Source: Natrinema hispanicum (GTDB taxonomy: Archaea > Halobacteriota > Halobacteria > Halobacteriales > Natrialbaceae). Taken from it: a stretch of DNA of 64,000 nucleotides. A program made the position numbers and the translations under genes. The stretch is taken from positions 62,001 through 126,000 of the forward strand of contig NZ_FOIC01000006.1 in assembly GCF_900111485.1 (NCBI RefSeq). The letters are read 5' to 3'. The notes beneath the pieces were generated by a model. The model did no database searches and was not told where the DNA came from. It was given only the letters and a program-made list of their open reading frames with translations. Positions 23,522-40,500 of this stretch are shown here, one piece after another (positions within the stretch are counted from its first letter, which is position 1; every line of letters begins with the position of its first letter).

Positions 23522-23797
23522 ATGTTCGGGTCGCGAACCGCAACCGCCGTGGTGGGACTGCTGGTGAGTCTCCTCGTGAGTGCCGTCCTCTGGTGGCGGT
23601 TCAATACGGTCGCGTTCTTTCTGGTCGTCCCGTTCGTTCCGTTTCTGTTCGGTAAGTCGGGACGAGAGTCATCGGAACCACCGGTTCGAACGTGTCCCGC
23701 CTGTGGGTTCCAAACGCGGGATCCGGCGTATGAATACTGTCCACGCGACGGGACGGCCCTGGAGACGACACGCGCCCGCGAGTCGCCCTCAGCGTGA
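23522..23797 (+). CDS. Small membrane protein with a zinc ribbon
   Basis: A 91-residue protein. Two hydrophobic helices (VVGLLVSLLVSAVLWWRF; VAFFLVVPFVPFLFG) are followed by a cytoplasmic zinc ribbon with two Cys pairs, CPACG at about 61-65 and CPRDG at about 77-81 — a CxxC and a single Cys in the second knuckle, so the ribbon may be incomplete. The frame runs upstream to 23357, but that part overlaps the hisG promoter and is basic; the ATG at 23522 fits the family. It overlaps the end of the SHOCT gene by 9 bases. Function unknown. Confidence 0.72.
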   Translation: MFGSRTATAVVGLLVSLLVSAVLWWRFNTVAFFLVVPFVPFLFGKSGRESSEPPVRTCPACGFQTRDPAYEYCPRDGTALETTRARESPSA

Positions 23798-24166
23798 TCG
23801 ATCCCGCTCGAGCGTCTCTCGGCGCTGTTCGTACTCCTCGTCGCTCAACTCGCCGCGAGCGTACGCGCGGCGAAGCTCCTCGAACGCCCCATCGGAGCCA
23901 TCGCTCGATCCAGTGACCGCTCGATAGAGGAGATAGCCACCACCGATGATGCCGGCGACGAACAGGAGTTGCATCAGTACGGCGACGAGGGGCATCCAGC
24001 CGGGGACCGTTCCGCCACCCCAGACGCCGTGTCCCCACATGCCACCCATCATCGGCCCGACACCCATCATGCCGAATCCCATGAAGAGCATCGGCAGCAC
24101 GACGAGGGCACCGATGGCGATGAGGACAATCGTGACGAGTCGCGTGTCGCGTGTGTCTGTTGCCAT
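23789..24166 (-). CDS. SHOCT-domain membrane protein with a Met/His-rich segment
   Basis: A 125-residue protein. A first membrane helix (LVTIVLIAIGALVVLPMLFM) runs into a Met/Gly/His/Trp-rich segment (MGFGMMGVGPMMGGMWGH and on, about residues 29-50), a second helix (PLVAVLMQLLFVAGIIGGGYLL) and a C-terminal SHOCT motif (FEELRRAYARGELSDEEYEQRR). SHOCT motifs are short oligomerisation helices. The Met/His-rich stretch is of a kind that often binds copper, and the gene borders a copper cluster, so a role there is inferred. Convergent with the zinc-ribbon gene. Confidence 0.78.
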   Translation of the reverse strand: MATDTRDTRLVTIVLIAIGALVVLPMLFMGFGMMGVGPMMGGMWGHGVWGGGTVPGWMPLVAVLMQLLFVAGIIGGGYLLYRAVTGSSDGSDGAFEELRRAYARGELSDEEYEQRRETLERDRSR

Positions 24167-24556
24167 GTTAAGTCACCGGCGACGGAGCGTCCCGTCCCCA
24201 TGTAGAACGACGGCCTCCCGACTCAATGCAGTTCTCCCTTTGAATCCAATGTCCGTCTGCGACCACTGTGGCGTTCTGTCCGTCAGTGATTCGATGACGA
24301 GCGAATCCACGCAGCCGGCCGCGCGTGCCCCATACCGGCAGTTCGTCGGAGTCATTCTATCGGTCGCCGCCGCGGTTCCATCGCGTGTCGGACGCCACGA
24401 TCGATTCCGTCCCGGCGCGCCGCGGGTTCGGTCGCGCTATTCCACGCCTCTCTAATGGAAGGGCACCCTCGAACTTTCGAGTCTCCGCTTCCCGATGGGA
24501 ATGACATAGTTTTCTGAAGAACAACCGCAATAGTCACGCTATCCGTACGACTAGAT
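24167..24556. other. 390-bp divergent intergenic region of the copper cluster
   Basis: This lies between the SHOCT gene (minus) and the YHS permease gene (plus). A 68-codon frame at 24249-24455 begins MSVCDHCG but degrades into basic sequence, so I do not call it. The right part holds an ACTTTCGA motif at 24473-24480 shared with the other copper-cluster promoters. Confidence 0.5.
24469..24482. promoter_or_regulatory. Putative metal-regulon site upstream of the permease
   Basis: CTCGAA-CT-TTCGAG is a perfect inverted repeat that includes the 8-mer ACTTTCGA found at the regulator and copA promoters. It lies about 75 bases before the permease start. Assignment rests on the shared motif only. 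Confidence 0.4.
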
Positions 24557-25954
24557 ATGGAGCCGCCGCTCATCGAGGGAGTCCTCGAGTCACTCCGGGT
24601 CGGCCTCGGATTCCTCTGGACCGCGGCGTGGGCGATCATCATGGGACTGACGATCACGAGTCTCGTGCAAGTCTACGTCTCGAAAGAGCGAATGGCGCAG
24701 GTACTCGGGGACGACGACCTCTCGAGTCTCGCGACGGCGACGGCGTTCGGCGCGGCGAGTAGCGGCTGTAGCTTCGGTGCCGCCGCTATCGGCAAGGGGC
24801 TGTTCGCGAAGGGCGCTCATGTGGTAAATTTCCTCGCGTTCATGTTCGCGTCGACGAATCTGATTGTCGAACTCGGTCTGATGATTCTGATCCTGCTTGG
24901 GTGGGAGTTTCTGGTCGCGGAACTCCTCGGCGGACTCGTCCTCATCGCGGTCATGGCGTTTATCGTCCGGCTGACGCTTCCGGAACCGCTGTTCGACGAG
25001 GCTCGGGCACAACTCACTAGGCACGAGCACGACCACAGCGCCATGGTGGACCCGACATGCGGGATGGACGGGTCCACCGACCATACTCTCGTGACCGATG
25101 GCGGCGACACGCTGACGTTCTGTTCTGCGGGGTGTCTGGAGACCTACCGCCAACAGGCGGCTGGCAGCGGCACGTGGCACGACGATCTCCGTTCGTGGGG
25201 CGGCTGGTACAAACTCGGGAACCAGTATCGCAAGGAGTGGTCGATGATCTGGAAGGACGTCGTCGCGGGCTTTCTCATCTCGGGATTCGTCATCGTGTTC
25301 GTCCCACAGCAGGTCTGGAACACGCTGTTTCTCGAGGGCGATGGAGTGCTTGTGACCGCCGAAAACGCAGTTATGGGTGTCACCATCGCCGTCATCAGTT
25401 TCGTCGGCAGCATGGGCAACGTCCCTTTTGCGGTCGCGCTCTGGGGCGGTGGGATCAGCTTCGCTGGCGTCATCGCCTTTGTCTACGCCGATCTCATCAC
25501 GATTCCGGTTCTCAATGTCTACCGGAAGTACTACGGCTGGGCGGTCATGCTCTACATTCTCGGCGTCTTCTTCGTGACGATGGCCTTCACTGGCTTGCTG
25601 ATGGAACTGCTCTTCGACGCACTCGGTATCGTTCCGAATCTGGCCGGCGGGGAGACGGCCACCGAGGCGACGTACTTCGAACTCGACTACACGCTTGCCC
25701 TCAATCTAGTCGCGTTCGCACTGTCGGGCGTGCTCCTGTACGTCTACCGCCGCGGGCTCGGTGCGCCCGGGCAGCACCGCGATCCCGTGTGTGGGATGCG
25801 AACCGACGATGACGGCCCAAGCACCACGTACGACGGCGAGACCTACTACTTCTGTTCGACTGCCTGTAAGCGGGCGTTCGAGGAGACACCCGCCGAGTTC
25901 GCCGGCGAGTCGCCGCGCGGGTCGGACTCCGAATCGTCACACGAGCATCACTGA
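24557..25954 (+). CDS. COG0701-type metal efflux permease with two fused YHS domains
   Basis: A 465-residue membrane protein. The first half (about 1-145) has the permease signature ATAFGAASSGCSFGAAAIGKGLF with Cys71. A His-rich bridge HEHDH leads into a YHS-like domain at about 164-198 (DPTCGM ... LTFCSAGCLETY). The second permease half spans about 225-400 (VVAGFLISGFVIVFVP; FVGSMGNVPFAVALWGGG). The C-terminus is a canonical YHS domain (DPVCGM ... YYFCSTACKRAFEETP) and a HEHH tail. COG0701 permeases include arsenic and copper/zinc exporters, and YHS domains bind soft metals. Copper is inferred from the CopZ, CopA and TRASH neighbours. Placing one YHS in the middle is unusual. Confidence 0.85.
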   Translation: MEPPLIEGVLESLRVGLGFLWTAAWAIIMGLTITSLVQVYVSKERMAQVLGDDDLSSLATATAFGAASSGCSFGAAAIGKGLFAKGAHVVNFLAFMFASTNLIVELGLMILILLGWEFLVAELLGGLVLIAVMAFIVRLTLPEPLFDEARAQLTRHEHDHSAMVDPTCGMDGSTDHTLVTDGGDTLTFCSAGCLETYRQQAAGSGTWHDDLRSWGGWYKLGNQYRKEWSMIWKDVVAGFLISGFVIVFVPQQVWNTLFLEGDGVLVTAENAVMGVTIAVISFVGSMGNVPFAVALWGGGISFAGVIAFVYADLITIPVLNVYRKYYGWAVMLYILGVFFVTMAFTGLLMELLFDALGIVPNLAGGETATEATYFELDYTLALNLVAFALSGVLLYVYRRGLGAPGQHRDPVCGMRTDDDGPSTTYDGETYYFCSTACKRAFEETPAEFAGESPRGSDSESSHEHH

Positions 25955-26008
25955 CTCTCACCCTGCACTGCGCTACAAACGGACGTTCTCTCGGTCTCGA
26001 GACGGTGC

Positions 26009-26206
26009 CTACGCCGACGCGTCGTAGCCAGCCTCGTCGACCGCGCTGACGAGGTCCTGAGTCGCCGCATCGCCCTCGATGGTCGCCTGCGCCGCGTCCA
26101 GATCGACCTCGACAGACTGGACACCCTGAACGCTTGCGAGGGCCTCTTCGACGCTCTGTTCACAGTGTTCACACGACATTCCGTCGACAGTGATCGTCTG
26201 ACTCAT
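26009..26206 (-). CDS. copZ: CopZ-like heavy-metal chaperone
   Basis: A 65-residue single HMA domain starting MSQTITVDGMSCEHCEQSV; the CxxC copper-binding loop is at about residues 11-14. The rest follows the beta-alpha-beta-beta-alpha-beta pattern (VQGVQSVEVDLDAAQATIEG; DLVSAVDEAGYDAS). It would hand Cu(I) to the CopA ATPase. The open frame extends upstream to 26302 but overlaps the promoter and operator, so 26206 is the start. It is transcribed divergently from the Lrp-TRASH regulator; its 3' end converges with the permease gene. Confidence 0.92.
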   Translation of the reverse strand: MSQTITVDGMSCEHCEQSVEEALASVQGVQSVEVDLDAAQATIEGDAATQDLVSAVDEAGYDASA

Positions 26207-26243
26207 ACGAACGTGTATGGACGCCCGATCTTTGTGCATTACT

Positions 26244-26291
26244 ACTTTCGATCCCAACTCGAGCTCGACCGAGACTTTCGATCTGAAAGTC
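26244..26291. promoter_or_regulatory. Two putative TRASH-regulator operator sites between copZ and its regulator
   Basis: ACTTTCGAT occurs at 26244-26252. The perfect inverted repeat GACTTTC-GATCT-GAAAGTC lies at 26273-26291. They fall in the 126-base divergent gap between copZ and the regulator gene and match sites upstream of copA. A site in this position would allow autoregulation together with control of copZ. Confidence 0.55.
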
Positions 26292-26332
26292 GTAGTCGCC
26301 ACGCTCTTTGCTATCGAGGACCACTCGGCGGT

Positions 26333-26920
26333 ATGCGCGACCTCGACGAGACTGATATGGAGATCCTGCGGCTGCTGGCTGAGAACGCGCGCCGCCCGTA
26401 CAGCGAAATCGCCGAGCAGGTCGGTCTTTCCGGACCGGCCGTCTCCGACCGTGTCGAGCGCCTCGAGGAAGCAGGTGTCATCAACGGGTTCACCGTCGAC
26501 GTCGACCAGTCACAGCTTCGGGCGGGCGTTCCGGTGTTCGTCCGGGCGGCCGTTCCGCCAGGTGCCGTCGGTGCGTGCAAGGCAGCGCTCGTCGACGCCG
26601 ATGCGGTCGAACACGTGTTCGTCACCGCCGACGGCGACTGCTGGTTCTATGCACGCGCCCAGCTCCAACGGGTCCACGAGTGGCTCGAGGGACTGTTTCC
26701 AGTCGACGGCGTCGACTACGAGGTGACGCTGATGGACGACGCCGAATGGACGCCGTCGCTCGACGGAGCGGCGTTCGCGCTCACCTGTGTAGAGTGTGGC
26801 AACACCGTCGACAGCGAGGGCGAGTCGACCCGTATCGACGGCGAGATGTACCACTTCTGCTGTCCCTCTTGTCGGAGCCGGTTCGAACAGCGATACGATC
26901 GGCTCGAGGAAGGCGTCTGA
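26333..26920 (+). CDS. Lrp/AsnC-type regulator with a C-terminal TRASH metal-sensing domain
   Basis: A 195-residue transcription factor. Residues of about 3-60 form an Lrp-type HTH (DETDMEILRLLAENARRPYS, EIAEQVGLSGPAVSDRVERL), followed by an Lrp-like sensory fold. A TRASH domain at about 150-187 has Cys pairs LTCVECGNTV and YHFCCPSCRSRFE. TRASH binds copper-like metals, and Lrp-TRASH proteins are established copper regulators in Halobacterium (the VNG1179C type). The ATG at 26333 opens the HTH; the earlier frame runs through the operator. Matching inverted repeats lie before this gene and before copA, which starts 84 bases downstream. Confidence 0.9.
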   Translation: MRDLDETDMEILRLLAENARRPYSEIAEQVGLSGPAVSDRVERLEEAGVINGFTVDVDQSQLRAGVPVFVRAAVPPGAVGACKAALVDADAVEHVFVTADGDCWFYARAQLQRVHEWLEGLFPVDGVDYEVTLMDDAEWTPSLDGAAFALTCVECGNTVDSEGESTRIDGEMYHFCCPSCRSRFEQRYDRLEEGV

Positions 26921-26974
26921 CTTTCGACTCGAAAGAACTGACCGCGTTGGACTTTGACTTTCGACCAGTAAAGT
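26919..26974. promoter_or_regulatory. Putative operator pair upstream of copA
   Basis: GACTTTCGA at 26919-26927 begins on the regulator's TGA stop and continues as the inverted repeat CTTTCG-ACT-CGAAAG (26921-26935). A second GACTTTCGA at 26956-26964 is followed by AAAGT (26970-26974), giving an imperfect dyad. Both are within 86 bases of the copA ATG at 27005. Confidence 0.55.
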
Positions 26975-27004: not shown

Positions 27005-29608
27005 ATGAGTACTCGGACCGCACATCTGGACATTCGGGGCATGAGCTGTGCGAACTGTTCGCAGGCGATCAACGATGCCCTAGAGTCCACCGACGGCGTA
27101 CACGAGGCGAGTATCAACTTCGCCACCGACGAGGGAACCGTCGAGTACGACCCCGAGCAGGTGTCGCTCGCCACGATCTACGAGACGATCGACGACGCCG
27201 GCTACCACGCCGAGCGTGCCAGCCGGTCGATCGGGATCACGGATATGAGCTGTGCGAACTGCGCCGAAGCAAACGAGACGGCACTCGAGTCCGTCCCCGG
27301 CGTCATCGACGTGGAGGTCAACTACGCGACCGACGAGGCCCAGGTCGAGTACAACCCCGTCGATGCCTCGCTCGAGGACCTCTACGCGGCGATCGAGAAC
27401 GCGGGGTACATGCCCGTCCGCGAGGAGGACGGCGGCGACGGCGAAGGGCAGTCGGATCAGGAACGCCGCGACGCGGCCCGACAGGCCGAGACCCGCAAAC
27501 AGCTTCGGCTGACGATTTTCGGCGCGGTGCTGTCGGCCCCGTTCCTGTTCTTCCTCGCAAATCGGTTCCTGCTCGGGGGCGCGTACGTTCCGGAGACGAT
27601 CTTCGGCATCGAGTTCGGCTGGGTCGAATTCCTGCTTGCGACGCCGGTCTACGTCGTCCTCGGTCGCGAGTTCCTCGCGAACTCGTATACGGCGCTCGCG
27701 AAAAACCGCACTGCCAACATGGACGTGCTGATCGCACTGGGGTCGTCGACGGCGTACATCTACAGCCTCGTCGTCCTGCTGGACTTGCTCGCGGGGAACC
27801 TGTATTTCGATACCGCCGCGATGATCCTCGTGTTCATCACGCTGGGCAACTACCTCGAGGCCCGCTCGAAGGGCCAGGCCGGCGATGCCTTGCGGAAACT
27901 CCTCGAGATGGAAGCCGAGACGGCGACGCTGGTCGACGACGAGGGCAACGAAGCGGAGGTACCACTCGAGGACGTCGCGGTCGGCGATCGGATGAAGGTC
28001 CGGCCGGGCGAGCAGGTGCCGACCGACGGCGTCGTCGTGGACGGTCAGTCCGCGGTCGACGAGTCGATGGTGACCGGCGAGTCGGTGCCCGTCGAGAAAG
28101 AGTCGGGCGACGAGGTGATCGGGTCGACGATCAACAAAAACGGCGTGCTGGTCGTCGAGGCGACGAAAGTCGGCGAGGACACCGCCCTGCAGGGGATCGT
28201 CCAGACCGTCAAGGAGGCCCAGGCACGCCAGCCAGAGATTCAGAATCTCGCCGATCGCATTTCGGCGTACTTCGTCCCCGCGGTCATCCTCAATGCGACG
28301 TTCTGGGGCCTGATCTGGTTCCTCTTCCCCGAGGCGCTGGCCGGCTTTGTCGGCGCGTTACCGCTATGGGGGCTGGTCGGTGGCGGCCCGGCCGCGCTCT
28401 CGACGTTCGAGTTCGCGATCGTCGTCTTCGCCTCTGCCGTGTTGATCGCCTGTCCCTGCGCGCTCGGACTGGCGACGCCCGCGGCGACGATGGTCGGCTC
28501 TACGCTGGGCGCACAAAACGGCGTCCTGTTCAAGGGCGGTGACGTCTTAGAGCGCGCGAAGGACGTCGACACCGTTGTCTTCGACAAGACCGGGACGCTG
28601 ACGACCGGCGAGATGACGCTGACCGACGTGGTCGCCCTCGGGGGCAAGACTGCTGTGACCGACGGCGGCGAGACGGCGACCGACGGTGGCACGCTGACCG
28701 CCCGCCCGTCCCTCGAGGACCACGAGGTGCTCCGCCTTGCGGCCAGCGCCGAGCGCAACAGTGAACACCCGCTCGCACAGGCGATCGTCGAAGGGGCCGA
28801 AGAACGCGGCCTCGAGCCAACCACCCCCGACGAGTTCGAGAACGTCCCCGGGCATGGCGTCCGGGCGACCGTCGAGGGTCGCGAGGTGCTGGTCGGGAAT
28901 CGTCGATTGCTCGAGAGCGAGGGCGTCGATCCGTCCCCTGCTGCAGACGAGATGGAACGCTTAGAGCACGAGGGCAAGACCGCGATGTTGGTTGCAGTCG
29001 ATGGCGCGGTCGCGGGCGTGGTCGCGGACGCCGACACGGTCAAGGACAGTTCGGCCGACGCGGTCGCGGCCCTGCAGGAACGCGATCTCGACGTGATGCT
29101 GATCACCGGCGACAACGAGCGGACGGCCCGTGCCGTCGCCGAGCAGGTCGGGATCGACCCCGACAACGTTCGCGCGGGTGTCCTCCCCGAGGACAAGGCC
29201 GACGCGGTCGAAGACATCCAGTCCGGGGGTCGCAAGGCCATGATGGTCGGCGACGGCGTCAACGACGCGCCTGCGCTCGCGGTCGCATACGTCGGCACCG
29301 CCATCGGCTCTGGGACCGACGTGGCCATCGAGGCGGCCGACGTGACGCTAATGCGCGACGATCCCCTCGACGTGGTGAAGGCGATCCGGATCTCGCAGGC
29401 GACGCTGGACAAGATCAAGCAGAACCTCGTCTGGGCGCTGGGCTACAACACCGCGATGATCCCGCTTGCCTCGCTGGGGCTGCTCCAGCCGGTGCTCGCG
29501 GCTGGCGCGATGGCGCTGTCGTCGGTGTCGGTCCTCTCGAACAGCCTGCTGTTTCGCCGATACACGCCTGACCACGACTACCGGCTGTTCGGGTGGCTCC
29601 GGCGCTGA
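27005..29608 (+). CDS. copA: Copper-exporting P1B-type ATPase
   Basis: An 867-residue copper pump. Two HMA domains open the protein, with GMSCANCSQ near residue 15 and DMSCANCAE near 82. The membrane region carries the copper motif [12 protein letters not shown]. The actuator has the TGES motif ([10 protein letters not shown]), the phosphorylation site is FDKTGTLT, and the hinge is [12 protein letters not shown] conserved HP dipeptide (NSEHPLA) marks the nucleotide domain. All motifs are intact, so it should pump Cu(I) outwards. It sits just downstream of the Lrp-TRASH regulator with matching operator sites, and receives copper from the CopZ-like protein. Confidence 0.97.
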
Positions 29609-37579: not shown

Positions 37580-40500
37580 ATGGACTGGACTGCGGTTCAG
37601 AGCGGACTGTTCGCGGCCGACACGAGGCGGTCGCGTACGGTTTTGCTCGGCGTGATCGGTGTTGCAGTCTGGATCGTCGCTGGCCTCTTGGTCTCCGGAT
37701 TTCACGGCGTTGGCACGCAGACCGGACCTGGACTGCTCATCGTGGGTCTTGCCGCACGAAGCGGCTCCGATCGGACGAACGACCTCGAGCGGCTCACCGA
37801 CGCGCTTCGGCAGTTCACCTCGCGACTCGAGGACGAGTCTGCACGCTCCGAGTCCGAACAGTCTGTACAACCGCCGGCCGTCGACGGCCCGATCGACGTT
37901 ACGATCGATCGAGACGACGAACTCGGACGGCTCTCCGAGACCGTCACCGACTTGACGGCCGCGGTGTGTGACCGCGAACGGCAACGCGCCGAGAGCGAAC
38001 GGTATCGGCAGGACCTGTACCGGATCACGTCTGATCCGAACACGGATGACGAGACGAAGATCCGTCGCCTGCTCGAGTTGGGCTGTGAGCGGCTCGGTCT
38101 CGAGACCGGGTTCGTCTCCCGAATCGACGAGTCGGCCGACCGATACGAGATCGAGACGGCCGTCGGACACGGTACCGATCTCGAGGGGACGGTGCTGGAT
38201 CTCTCGGCGGTCTCCTGTCGCGACCTGTTCGAGTCGGCCGAGGTTCAGGGGGCCACTGACGCCAGTGCGGTCGAGTGGGACGACCATCCGATTGCCGACG
38301 AACTCGATGTCAACTGTCGTCTCGGTGGTCGGATCACCGTCGAGGGCGACCACTGCGGAACGATTTGTTTTCTGGATCGCGAGCCCCGAGAGCGAGCGTT
38401 TACGCCCGCCGAAACGTCGTTCGTGGAACTGATCGCCCGCTGGGTGAGCCAGACGTTCGAACGCCGCACTTACGTCGAGCGGATTCGGGAACGGGAGCGC
38501 CGTCTCGAGCGGGCACGGGCGTTTACCGACGATATGCTGGACGCGGTCGACGATGTCGTCTATCTCCTCGACGAGGACGGCACGGTGTGCCAGTGGAACG
38601 AGAGTCTGTGCGAGACGACGGGGTATACCGATGCCGAGATCGAGTCGATGCATGCGCTGGAGTTCTTCGACGAGGCGAACCACGACCGGATTATGAACTC
38701 GATCGCCGAGGTTCTCGAAACCGGGACCACACGTATCGATGTCCCGATCGTGACCTGCGATGGCGAGCCGATTCCCTACGAGTTCGTCGCGTCGACCCTC
38801 GAGAACCCGGCGGGCGAGCAGGTCATCGTCGGCGTCGGTCGCGACGTCAGCGAACGCTTGGAGAAACAGCGGCGACTCGAGCGATTCGAACAGTTCACCA
38901 CCGACGTTATCGATGCGTTAGACGACGTGTTTTACGTCCTTGACGAGAACGGCGCTCTCAAGCGTTGGAACGAGACGCTGGTCGAGGTCTCGGGGTATTC
39001 GGACGCCGAAATCGACGACATGCACGCCCTCGAGTTCTTCGACGAGGACGATCGGGACGTGATCCGCGATTCGATTACCGAAGCCTTCGAGACGGGCGAG
39101 ACGCACGTTGAAGCGGCGCTGCAGACGAAATCGGGCGATCGGATTCCCTACGAGTTCGTCGCGTCGGTGCTTAACGATCCCGACGGTAACCCCGTCGAGG
39201 TCGGTATCGGTCGAGATATCTCCGAGCGCAAGGCGAAAGAGCGCCGGCTTCGCAAACGCGAAGCCCACCTCGAGCGGACGACGCATCTGTTAGAGCACTC
39301 CCAGCGGCTGGCAAACGTGGGTGCCTGGGAACTCGACGTGACCGACGATTCCGCCGACGTTCGATGGACTGACGAGGTCTACAGTATCTTTGAACTTGCA
39401 TCCGATCAGGAACTCGATCTCGATCGGGTATTCGACTATATTGCACCGGAAGATCGGTCACGACTCCGCGCGGTGATCGACCGTGCACTCGAGGACGGTG
39501 AGGCGTACGATATCGAAAACCAGATCATCACAGCGGATGGCAACCGCCGCTGGATCCGCAGTATCGGTGCGCCCGTCCGAGATGACGGTGAGATCGTCGC
39601 ACTCCGCGGCGCGGCCCAAGATATTACCACGCGCAAGGAGCGCGAACGCGAACTCGAGCGCGCCGAGACGATCATTCAGGCGCTCGATGAGGTGGTGTAT
39701 ACGATCGACGCGGACGGAAACTTCCAGTTCGTCAACGATGCGCTGACACAGATCATTGGCTACGACCCAGACGCGTTGATCGGCGAACACGTCTCGACGG
39801 TGATGGCTGCCGCGGACATCGAGACGGCACAGAACCGCATTCGAGACCTACTCAGCGAAAACGAGCCGTCAGAGACGTTCGAGATGGTCCTCGAGACCGT
39901 CGACGGCGAGCGGATCGACGTCGAAAACCACATGGCGCTGTTGCCGATGGACGACGGCGAGTTCACCGGGACCGCCGGCGTCATCCGTGACATCACCGAG
40001 CGCAAGGAACGCGAGCGCCGTCTGGAAACGACGAGCGCTCGACTCGAGGCACTGTTCGAGAACTCCCCCGACATGATCAACGTGCTCGATACCGAGGGGA
40101 CGATCGTCGACGCCAATCGGCGGCTTGCGGACGCGCTCGGCTACACCGAAGACAAGCTACTTGGCACGAAGATCTGGGAACACGACGCGCTATTCAGCGA
40201 AGCCGAGGTGTTTACGATGCTCGAGGACCTGTCGGTCGGCGACCGTCGAAAGTTCGAGGGTCAGTACCACTGTCACGACGGCTCGACGTTCCCTGTCGAG
40301 GTCCACCTCATCTGTCTCGATCTCGAGAATCAAAACCAGTATCTGGCGATCAGTCGCGACATCACGGAACGCAAAGAGCGTGAACGCGATCTTCGCGAGA
40401 CGAAACGCCGTCTCGAACTCACACTCGAGGGGACGAACACGGCCGTCTGGGAGTGGGATCTAGACACTGACAAGGTCATCTGGAACGAGACGTACGAGCG

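Follow-up and report, generated by a model that had tools for sequence, protein, structure and literature searches.

Which sequence marks the promoters of the copper genes clustered in this haloarchaeal genome, and which protein reads it? Within the window (the whole stretch of DNA that was analysed, 64,000 nucleotides of a Natrinema hispanicum contig), an earlier note had proposed the 9-mer GACTTTCGA, together with its dyad, as a candidate binding site for an Lrp-TRASH regulator encoded in the cluster. A copper-gene operator at these positions is supported by our analysis, but the motif itself had to be replaced: GACTTTCGA is half of a 17-bp dyad with the consensus ACTTTSGATTCSAAAGT. Judging from sequence comparison, this dyad is very probably the operator of the neighbouring regulator, a haloarchaeal CopR of the VNG1179C/HVO_1752 type.

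Copper genes and dyads in the window

The regulator gene (26333–26920, + strand) encodes a protein of the haloarchaeal CopR type that matches PF13404 and PF24273 above cut-offs; its AsnC/Lrp-type HTH (residues 4–45) and C-terminal TRASH domain (residues 149–195, TRASH_HVO_1752_C) are the combination that marks membership of this class. Upstream of it lies copZ (26009–26206, − strand), an HMA-domain copper chaperone (PF00403; NF047957 CopZ above cut-off), and downstream copA (27005–29608, + strand), a copper-type P1B ATPase with two N-terminal HMA domains (TIGR01525 and TIGR01511 above cut-off). An ArsP_1-family permease with a C-terminal YHS domain (24557–25954, + strand; PF03773, PF04945) matched the SO_0444 Cu/Zn efflux profile weakly, below its cut-off, and shares its upstream region, including a half-site at 24473, with a gene for a SHOCT-domain membrane protein (23789–24166, − strand). 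The closest orthologous loci, with 98% regulator identity, are those of N. hispanicum and N. limicola, identifying the window as that of a Natrinema-group haloarchaeon. From 181 collected loci we retained 118 that were non-redundant, 82 with copA downstream of the regulator and 36 without; the metal-binding cysteine pattern of the TRASH domain (CxxC...C...C) was present in all 118 orthologues, and the recognition helix LSGPAVSDR was near-invariant among those linked to copA. In Haloterrigena sp. H1, the whole cop cluster is found in three near-identical copies on three contigs (L063, L064, L072), reflecting either amplification or an assembly effect.

The 9-mer lies exactly where it had been reported (26273, 26919, and 26956), as does the word ACTTTCGA at the additional positions 24473 and 26244; a further copy of ACTTTCGA at 40246 (− strand), outside the cluster, had been missed. 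By itself, the count of the 9-mer is weak evidence—three copies of GACTTTCGA in the window against 1.14 expected, a number reached in 11 of 100 shuffles. The clustering of ACTTTCGA is a strong signal, with five of the 79 occurrences in the 3.96-Mb genome falling within 2.49 kb, where 0.05 would be expected (P about 2e-9, or about 4e-6 when corrected for the number of windows). We rejected the literal 9-mer as the operator on the grounds that its count is unremarkable and that 14 of 30 orthologous Natrinema-group loci lack even ACTTTCGA. The copy at 26956 is out of register with what relatives conserve at this place, ACTTTGGATT, and looks like drift within the proximal, promoter-adjacent region.

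Although the 9-mer varies, an imperfect palindrome recurs over these 30 loci. The two dyads described previously are both perfect as written, but their separation into a 7-5-7 and a 6-3-6 type does not stand, as both share one geometry, CTTT-N7-AAAG (26274–26290 and 26920–26936). The first predicted operator, O1(copA), is ACTTTCGACTCGAAAGA (26920–26936, + strand), matching the consensus at 15 of 17 positions and centred at 26928, −77 relative to the ATG of copA. It begins with the final base of the lrp stop codon; the sites had been described as flanking the lrp gene, and while this one does overlap it, its position tracks copA instead. The second, O1'(copZ/lrp), is ACTTTCGATCTGAAAGT (26274–26290, + strand), whose centre at 26282 lies in a conserved register at −76 from the copZ ATG and also at −51 from the lrp ATG, so that one operator is placed for both genes. 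Each is accompanied by a predicted proximal site. O2'(copZ), ACTTTCGATCCCAACTC (26244–26260, + strand; centre 26252, −46 from copZ), matches at 13 of 17 positions and adjoins the copZ promoter, 30 bp from O1'. O2(copA), ACTTTGACTTTCGACCA (26951–26967, + strand), is a half-site centred at −46 that scores poorly in the window and overlaps the third 9-mer (26956); in relatives, the same region holds a conserved aCTTtGgaTt at −53 to −44 of copA. The permease has the half-site ACTTTCGAGTCTCCGCT (24473–24489, + strand; register centre 24481, −76 from the permease ATG), which is kept at −84/−85 in most of 16 non-redundant permease promoters, none of 200 permuted words scoring as well. The sites thus precede copZ, copA, and the permease, as had been claimed, the first two as dyads at −76 and −77 and the last as a half-site in the −76 register.

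Conservation and distance to start codons

The consensus ACTTTSGATTCSAAAGT was first read by eye from the Natrinema loci, which are not independent evidence; independent evidence comes from held-out loci, from copA genes in trans, and from a genome-wide search. We scanned every 4-letter word paired with its reverse complement, at gaps of 0 to 14, against dinucleotide shuffles. CTTT-N7-AAAG outranked every other pair in each of the two intergenic regions of the 82 copA-linked loci (in each, 16 of 82 loci where 0.05 would be expected), the largest shuffle count for any word pair being 5 and 4, respectively; in the 36 unlinked loci, the same scan found the pair neither enriched nor among the top pairs. 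When the Natrinema consensus was applied to the 62 other copA-linked loci, scores of at least 14/17 were attained in 45% upstream of lrp and in 60% before copA, compared with 0.1% for column-permuted palindromes and, among unlinked loci, 8% upstream of lrp and 0% in the downstream region. Roughly 18% of copA-linked loci have no site of at least 13/17 before copA, and such a site still lies upstream of 2 of the 28 regulators that lack both copA and copZ as neighbours.

Start codons were assigned by alignment to the window proteins, and all distances given here are to start codons, not to transcription start sites. In 62 of 67 site-bearing loci, the dyad centre falls at −76 to −82 of the copA start, and it moves with copA as the lrp–copA distance varies from 78 to 647 bp (r = 0.97 below 200 bp); where the gap reaches 416–647 bp (L220, L237, L238, L139), the dyad is still at −77. 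Orthologues of copZ have a distal site at −76 to −80 and a second one at −46 to −49, and lrp orthologues have a site at −49 to −54 even when copZ is absent. Orthologous clusters therefore conserve the dyad order-wide, at fixed distances from the starts of copA, copZ, and lrp, with a half-site at the permease. Gaps of about 400–970 bp between lrp and copA were seen in seven loci (L097, L099, L104, and the four above) with the operator still at −77 of copA; it is degenerate in L097 and L104.

A second site accompanies the first at a defined spacing. With 70 copA promoters aligned on the distal centre, the second-site score peaked exactly +31 from the O1 centre, and the copZ promoters gave a peak at +31/+30; 31 bp corresponds to three helical turns. 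Divergent copZ/lrp loci also show a weak third peak at copZ −107 (that is, lrp −20), 31 bp beyond the distal copZ site, which overlaps the lrp promoter region and would fit autorepression of lrp.

Sites away from the regulator and across genomes

copA adjoins the regulator in 82 of the 118 non-redundant loci, and the operator is common also to copA and copZ genes that are not linked to it. We looked up copA in 20 genomes in which the first locus sets had no copA directly downstream of the regulator, as well as in the window's own genome. In 11 of 16 copA homologues with at least 57% identity and no regulator in the fetched stretch, the highest-scoring site fell between −75 and −81 (P about 2e-10); one of these homologues (L303) lies only ~1.5 kb from the regulator. 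The clearest of these sites match at 16/17 (L289 at −77, L290 at −80) or 15/17 (L287 at −76, L288 at −80, L305 at −79), and the more distant homologues (57–62% identity) have weaker sites, scoring 10–14. Six paralogous metal ATPases (35–38% identity) had no site above 10 in the copA register, five of the six scoring 10 or less. Unlinked copZ genes likewise carry the site, with 14/17 at −76 in L316 and 15/17 at −75 in L329.

Genome-wide counts were made as pattern searches. In the Natrinema group (29 genomes), 46 distinct sites differ from CTTTSGATTCSAAAG by at most one mismatch, and 26 of them fall at cop loci, as tallied by hand against regulator positions. The exact pattern had 40 matches over 392 genomes of the order, against one for the reversed control; 24 of the 30 exact matches inspected lie at copA, copZ, or lrp (20 of these at −76 to −80 of copA or copZ), and at the other six loci, without a cop gene, most sites overlap long open frames. 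The dyad is thus almost exclusive to copper genes genome-wide; the contrary outcome named in advance, an equal frequency at unrelated promoters, is not what was observed. Within the genome of the window itself, strong matches that also adjoin copper genes are limited to the cluster's two dyads. Two-mismatch matches there were considered as an extra regulon and treated as chance: they lie inside or beside a transposase-like gene (L182), between ATPase-like and bioD-like genes (L183), and within an AAA-ATPase-like gene (L181). Elsewhere, an exact CTTTCGATTCGAAAG in L372 (G007:C45:149086–149100) lies at the start of an MFS-like open frame or a short way upstream of it; this frame has no known copper gene nearby and is a possible extra regulon member.

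The reader of the dyad and its likely action

The dyad might be a true copper-gene operator read by a different transcription factor, its nearness to lrp being incidental. Sites at copA and copZ genes distant from lrp would be compatible with this, H. salinarum encodes eight Lrp-family proteins (PMC4236453), and the assignment of CopR to the dyad is deduced from sequence. We nevertheless consider another factor unlikely, given that the promoter of the regulator gene itself carries the site, with or without copZ, that the size of the palindrome suits an Lrp dimer, that the CopR of P. furiosus binds a semi-palindrome of 15 bp in a similar position (PMC7830388), and that a relative of the regulator was found in 377 of 392 genomes, with work in H. 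salinarum tying CopR to the same genes. A very improbable reading is that the dyad word is the basal promoter element BRE: the haloarchaeal consensus has CGAAA as BRE and TTWT as TATA (PMC4983044), TCGAAAGT is the reverse complement of the motif, and the proximal copZ half-site ATCGAAAG is situated where a BRE could be and may double as one. The conserved unit, however, is a two-sided dyad at −77, too distant to be the BRE of a near-leaderless transcript, and whereas BREs occur at all promoters, exact dyads stand almost only at copper genes; on both counts this reading was rejected for the distal dyad. More improbable still is an RNA feature, a terminator or attenuator of lrp, even though the dyad at the lrp stop codon starts within that codon and could pair with itself: its position follows copA rather than lrp, holding −77 across gaps of 416–647 bp (the reason why a terminator was rejected), it is present at copA genes with no lrp nearby, and the same dyad stands upstream of lrp and copZ.

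With CopR as the preferred reader, three known systems offer the closest comparisons. H. salinarum CopR (VNG1179C) likewise combines an Lrp HTH with a C-terminal TRASH domain and controls the copper ATPase gene yvgX (copA) and two HMA chaperones (PMC3551603, PMC3600143, PMC5605881); copA transcription there changes in a copper-dependent way, and the regulator's own transcript is unchanged by copper (PMC3551603). Unlike in H. salinarum, regulator and targets are clustered in the window. PWMs for VNG1179C are published as figures (PMC4177876, PMC4236453), so that the operator sequence may in part be known already; the text consulted gives no operator with a fixed position. For these Lrp-family proteins, motif discovery from ChIP data has been described as ambiguous (PMC4177876). 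The CopR of P. furiosus, likewise an Lrp-TRASH protein, recognizes a 15-bp semi-palindrome that immediately precedes the BRE of copper genes; it stays bound with and without copper, forms octamers, activates copA, and represses its own gene (PMC7830388). That system resembles the present one in a shared divergent control region and a poor TATA box, but its cop-motif TTNNCAWWWTGNNAA, compared by eye, does not match ACTTTSGATTCSAAAGT, the half-site being CTTTSGA here and TTNNCA there. The layout also differs, with a strong distal site at about −77 and a weaker one 31 bp nearer the gene (PMC7830388). Measured to start codons, the proximal sites at about −46 and the lrp site at −51 would fit a place directly upstream of the BRE; the strongest copA and copZ sites lie further out, at −77. 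By analogy, the architecture fits the P. furiosus logic: the proximal site adjoins the presumed BRE/TATA, and the distal one is in phase with it. The CopT/CopR copMA system of Saccharolobus solfataricus, a crenarchaeal one, similarly clusters a TRASH regulator, chaperone, and copper ATPase and is reported as an activator (cited in PMC3600143, PMC7830388).

On this basis, a single dimer of the regulator would recognize each 17-bp dyad, binding strongly at the distal site ~77 bp upstream of the copA or copZ start codon and more weakly at the proximal site 31 bp nearer the gene, directly upstream of the presumed BRE/TATA; as 31 bp makes three helical turns, two dimers of a larger assembly could share one face of the DNA. 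Copper loading of the TRASH domain would then let the DNA-bound regulator switch on the weak promoters of copA and copZ. The permease would offer it a half-site only, in the −76 register, and the lrp site suggests autoregulation. On balance, we favour an order-wide CopR operator of two sites phased by 31 bp and fixed to the start codon, unlike the Pyrococcus cop-motif. If this is true, CopR would activate from −77 by means of an octamer that bridges or wraps the DNA, and its targets would need no linkage to the regulator gene. The dyad reduces a loosely defined haloarchaeal regulon to one short, position-locked sequence, which can be searched for in the genomes of all halophiles and altered by mutation in Haloferax or Halobacterium. 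The fixed −77/−46 layout also makes it possible to test directly in what way an archaeal activator of the Lrp type contacts the basal machinery.

CopR probably activates copA and copZ, a sign that we infer and favour because the TATA-like sequences at both genes are poor. The sign of CopR regulation is disputed in the literature, described as activation (PMC3600143, PMC7830388) or repression (PMC5605881), and for H. salinarum CopR, the disagreeing papers cite the same 2006 study.
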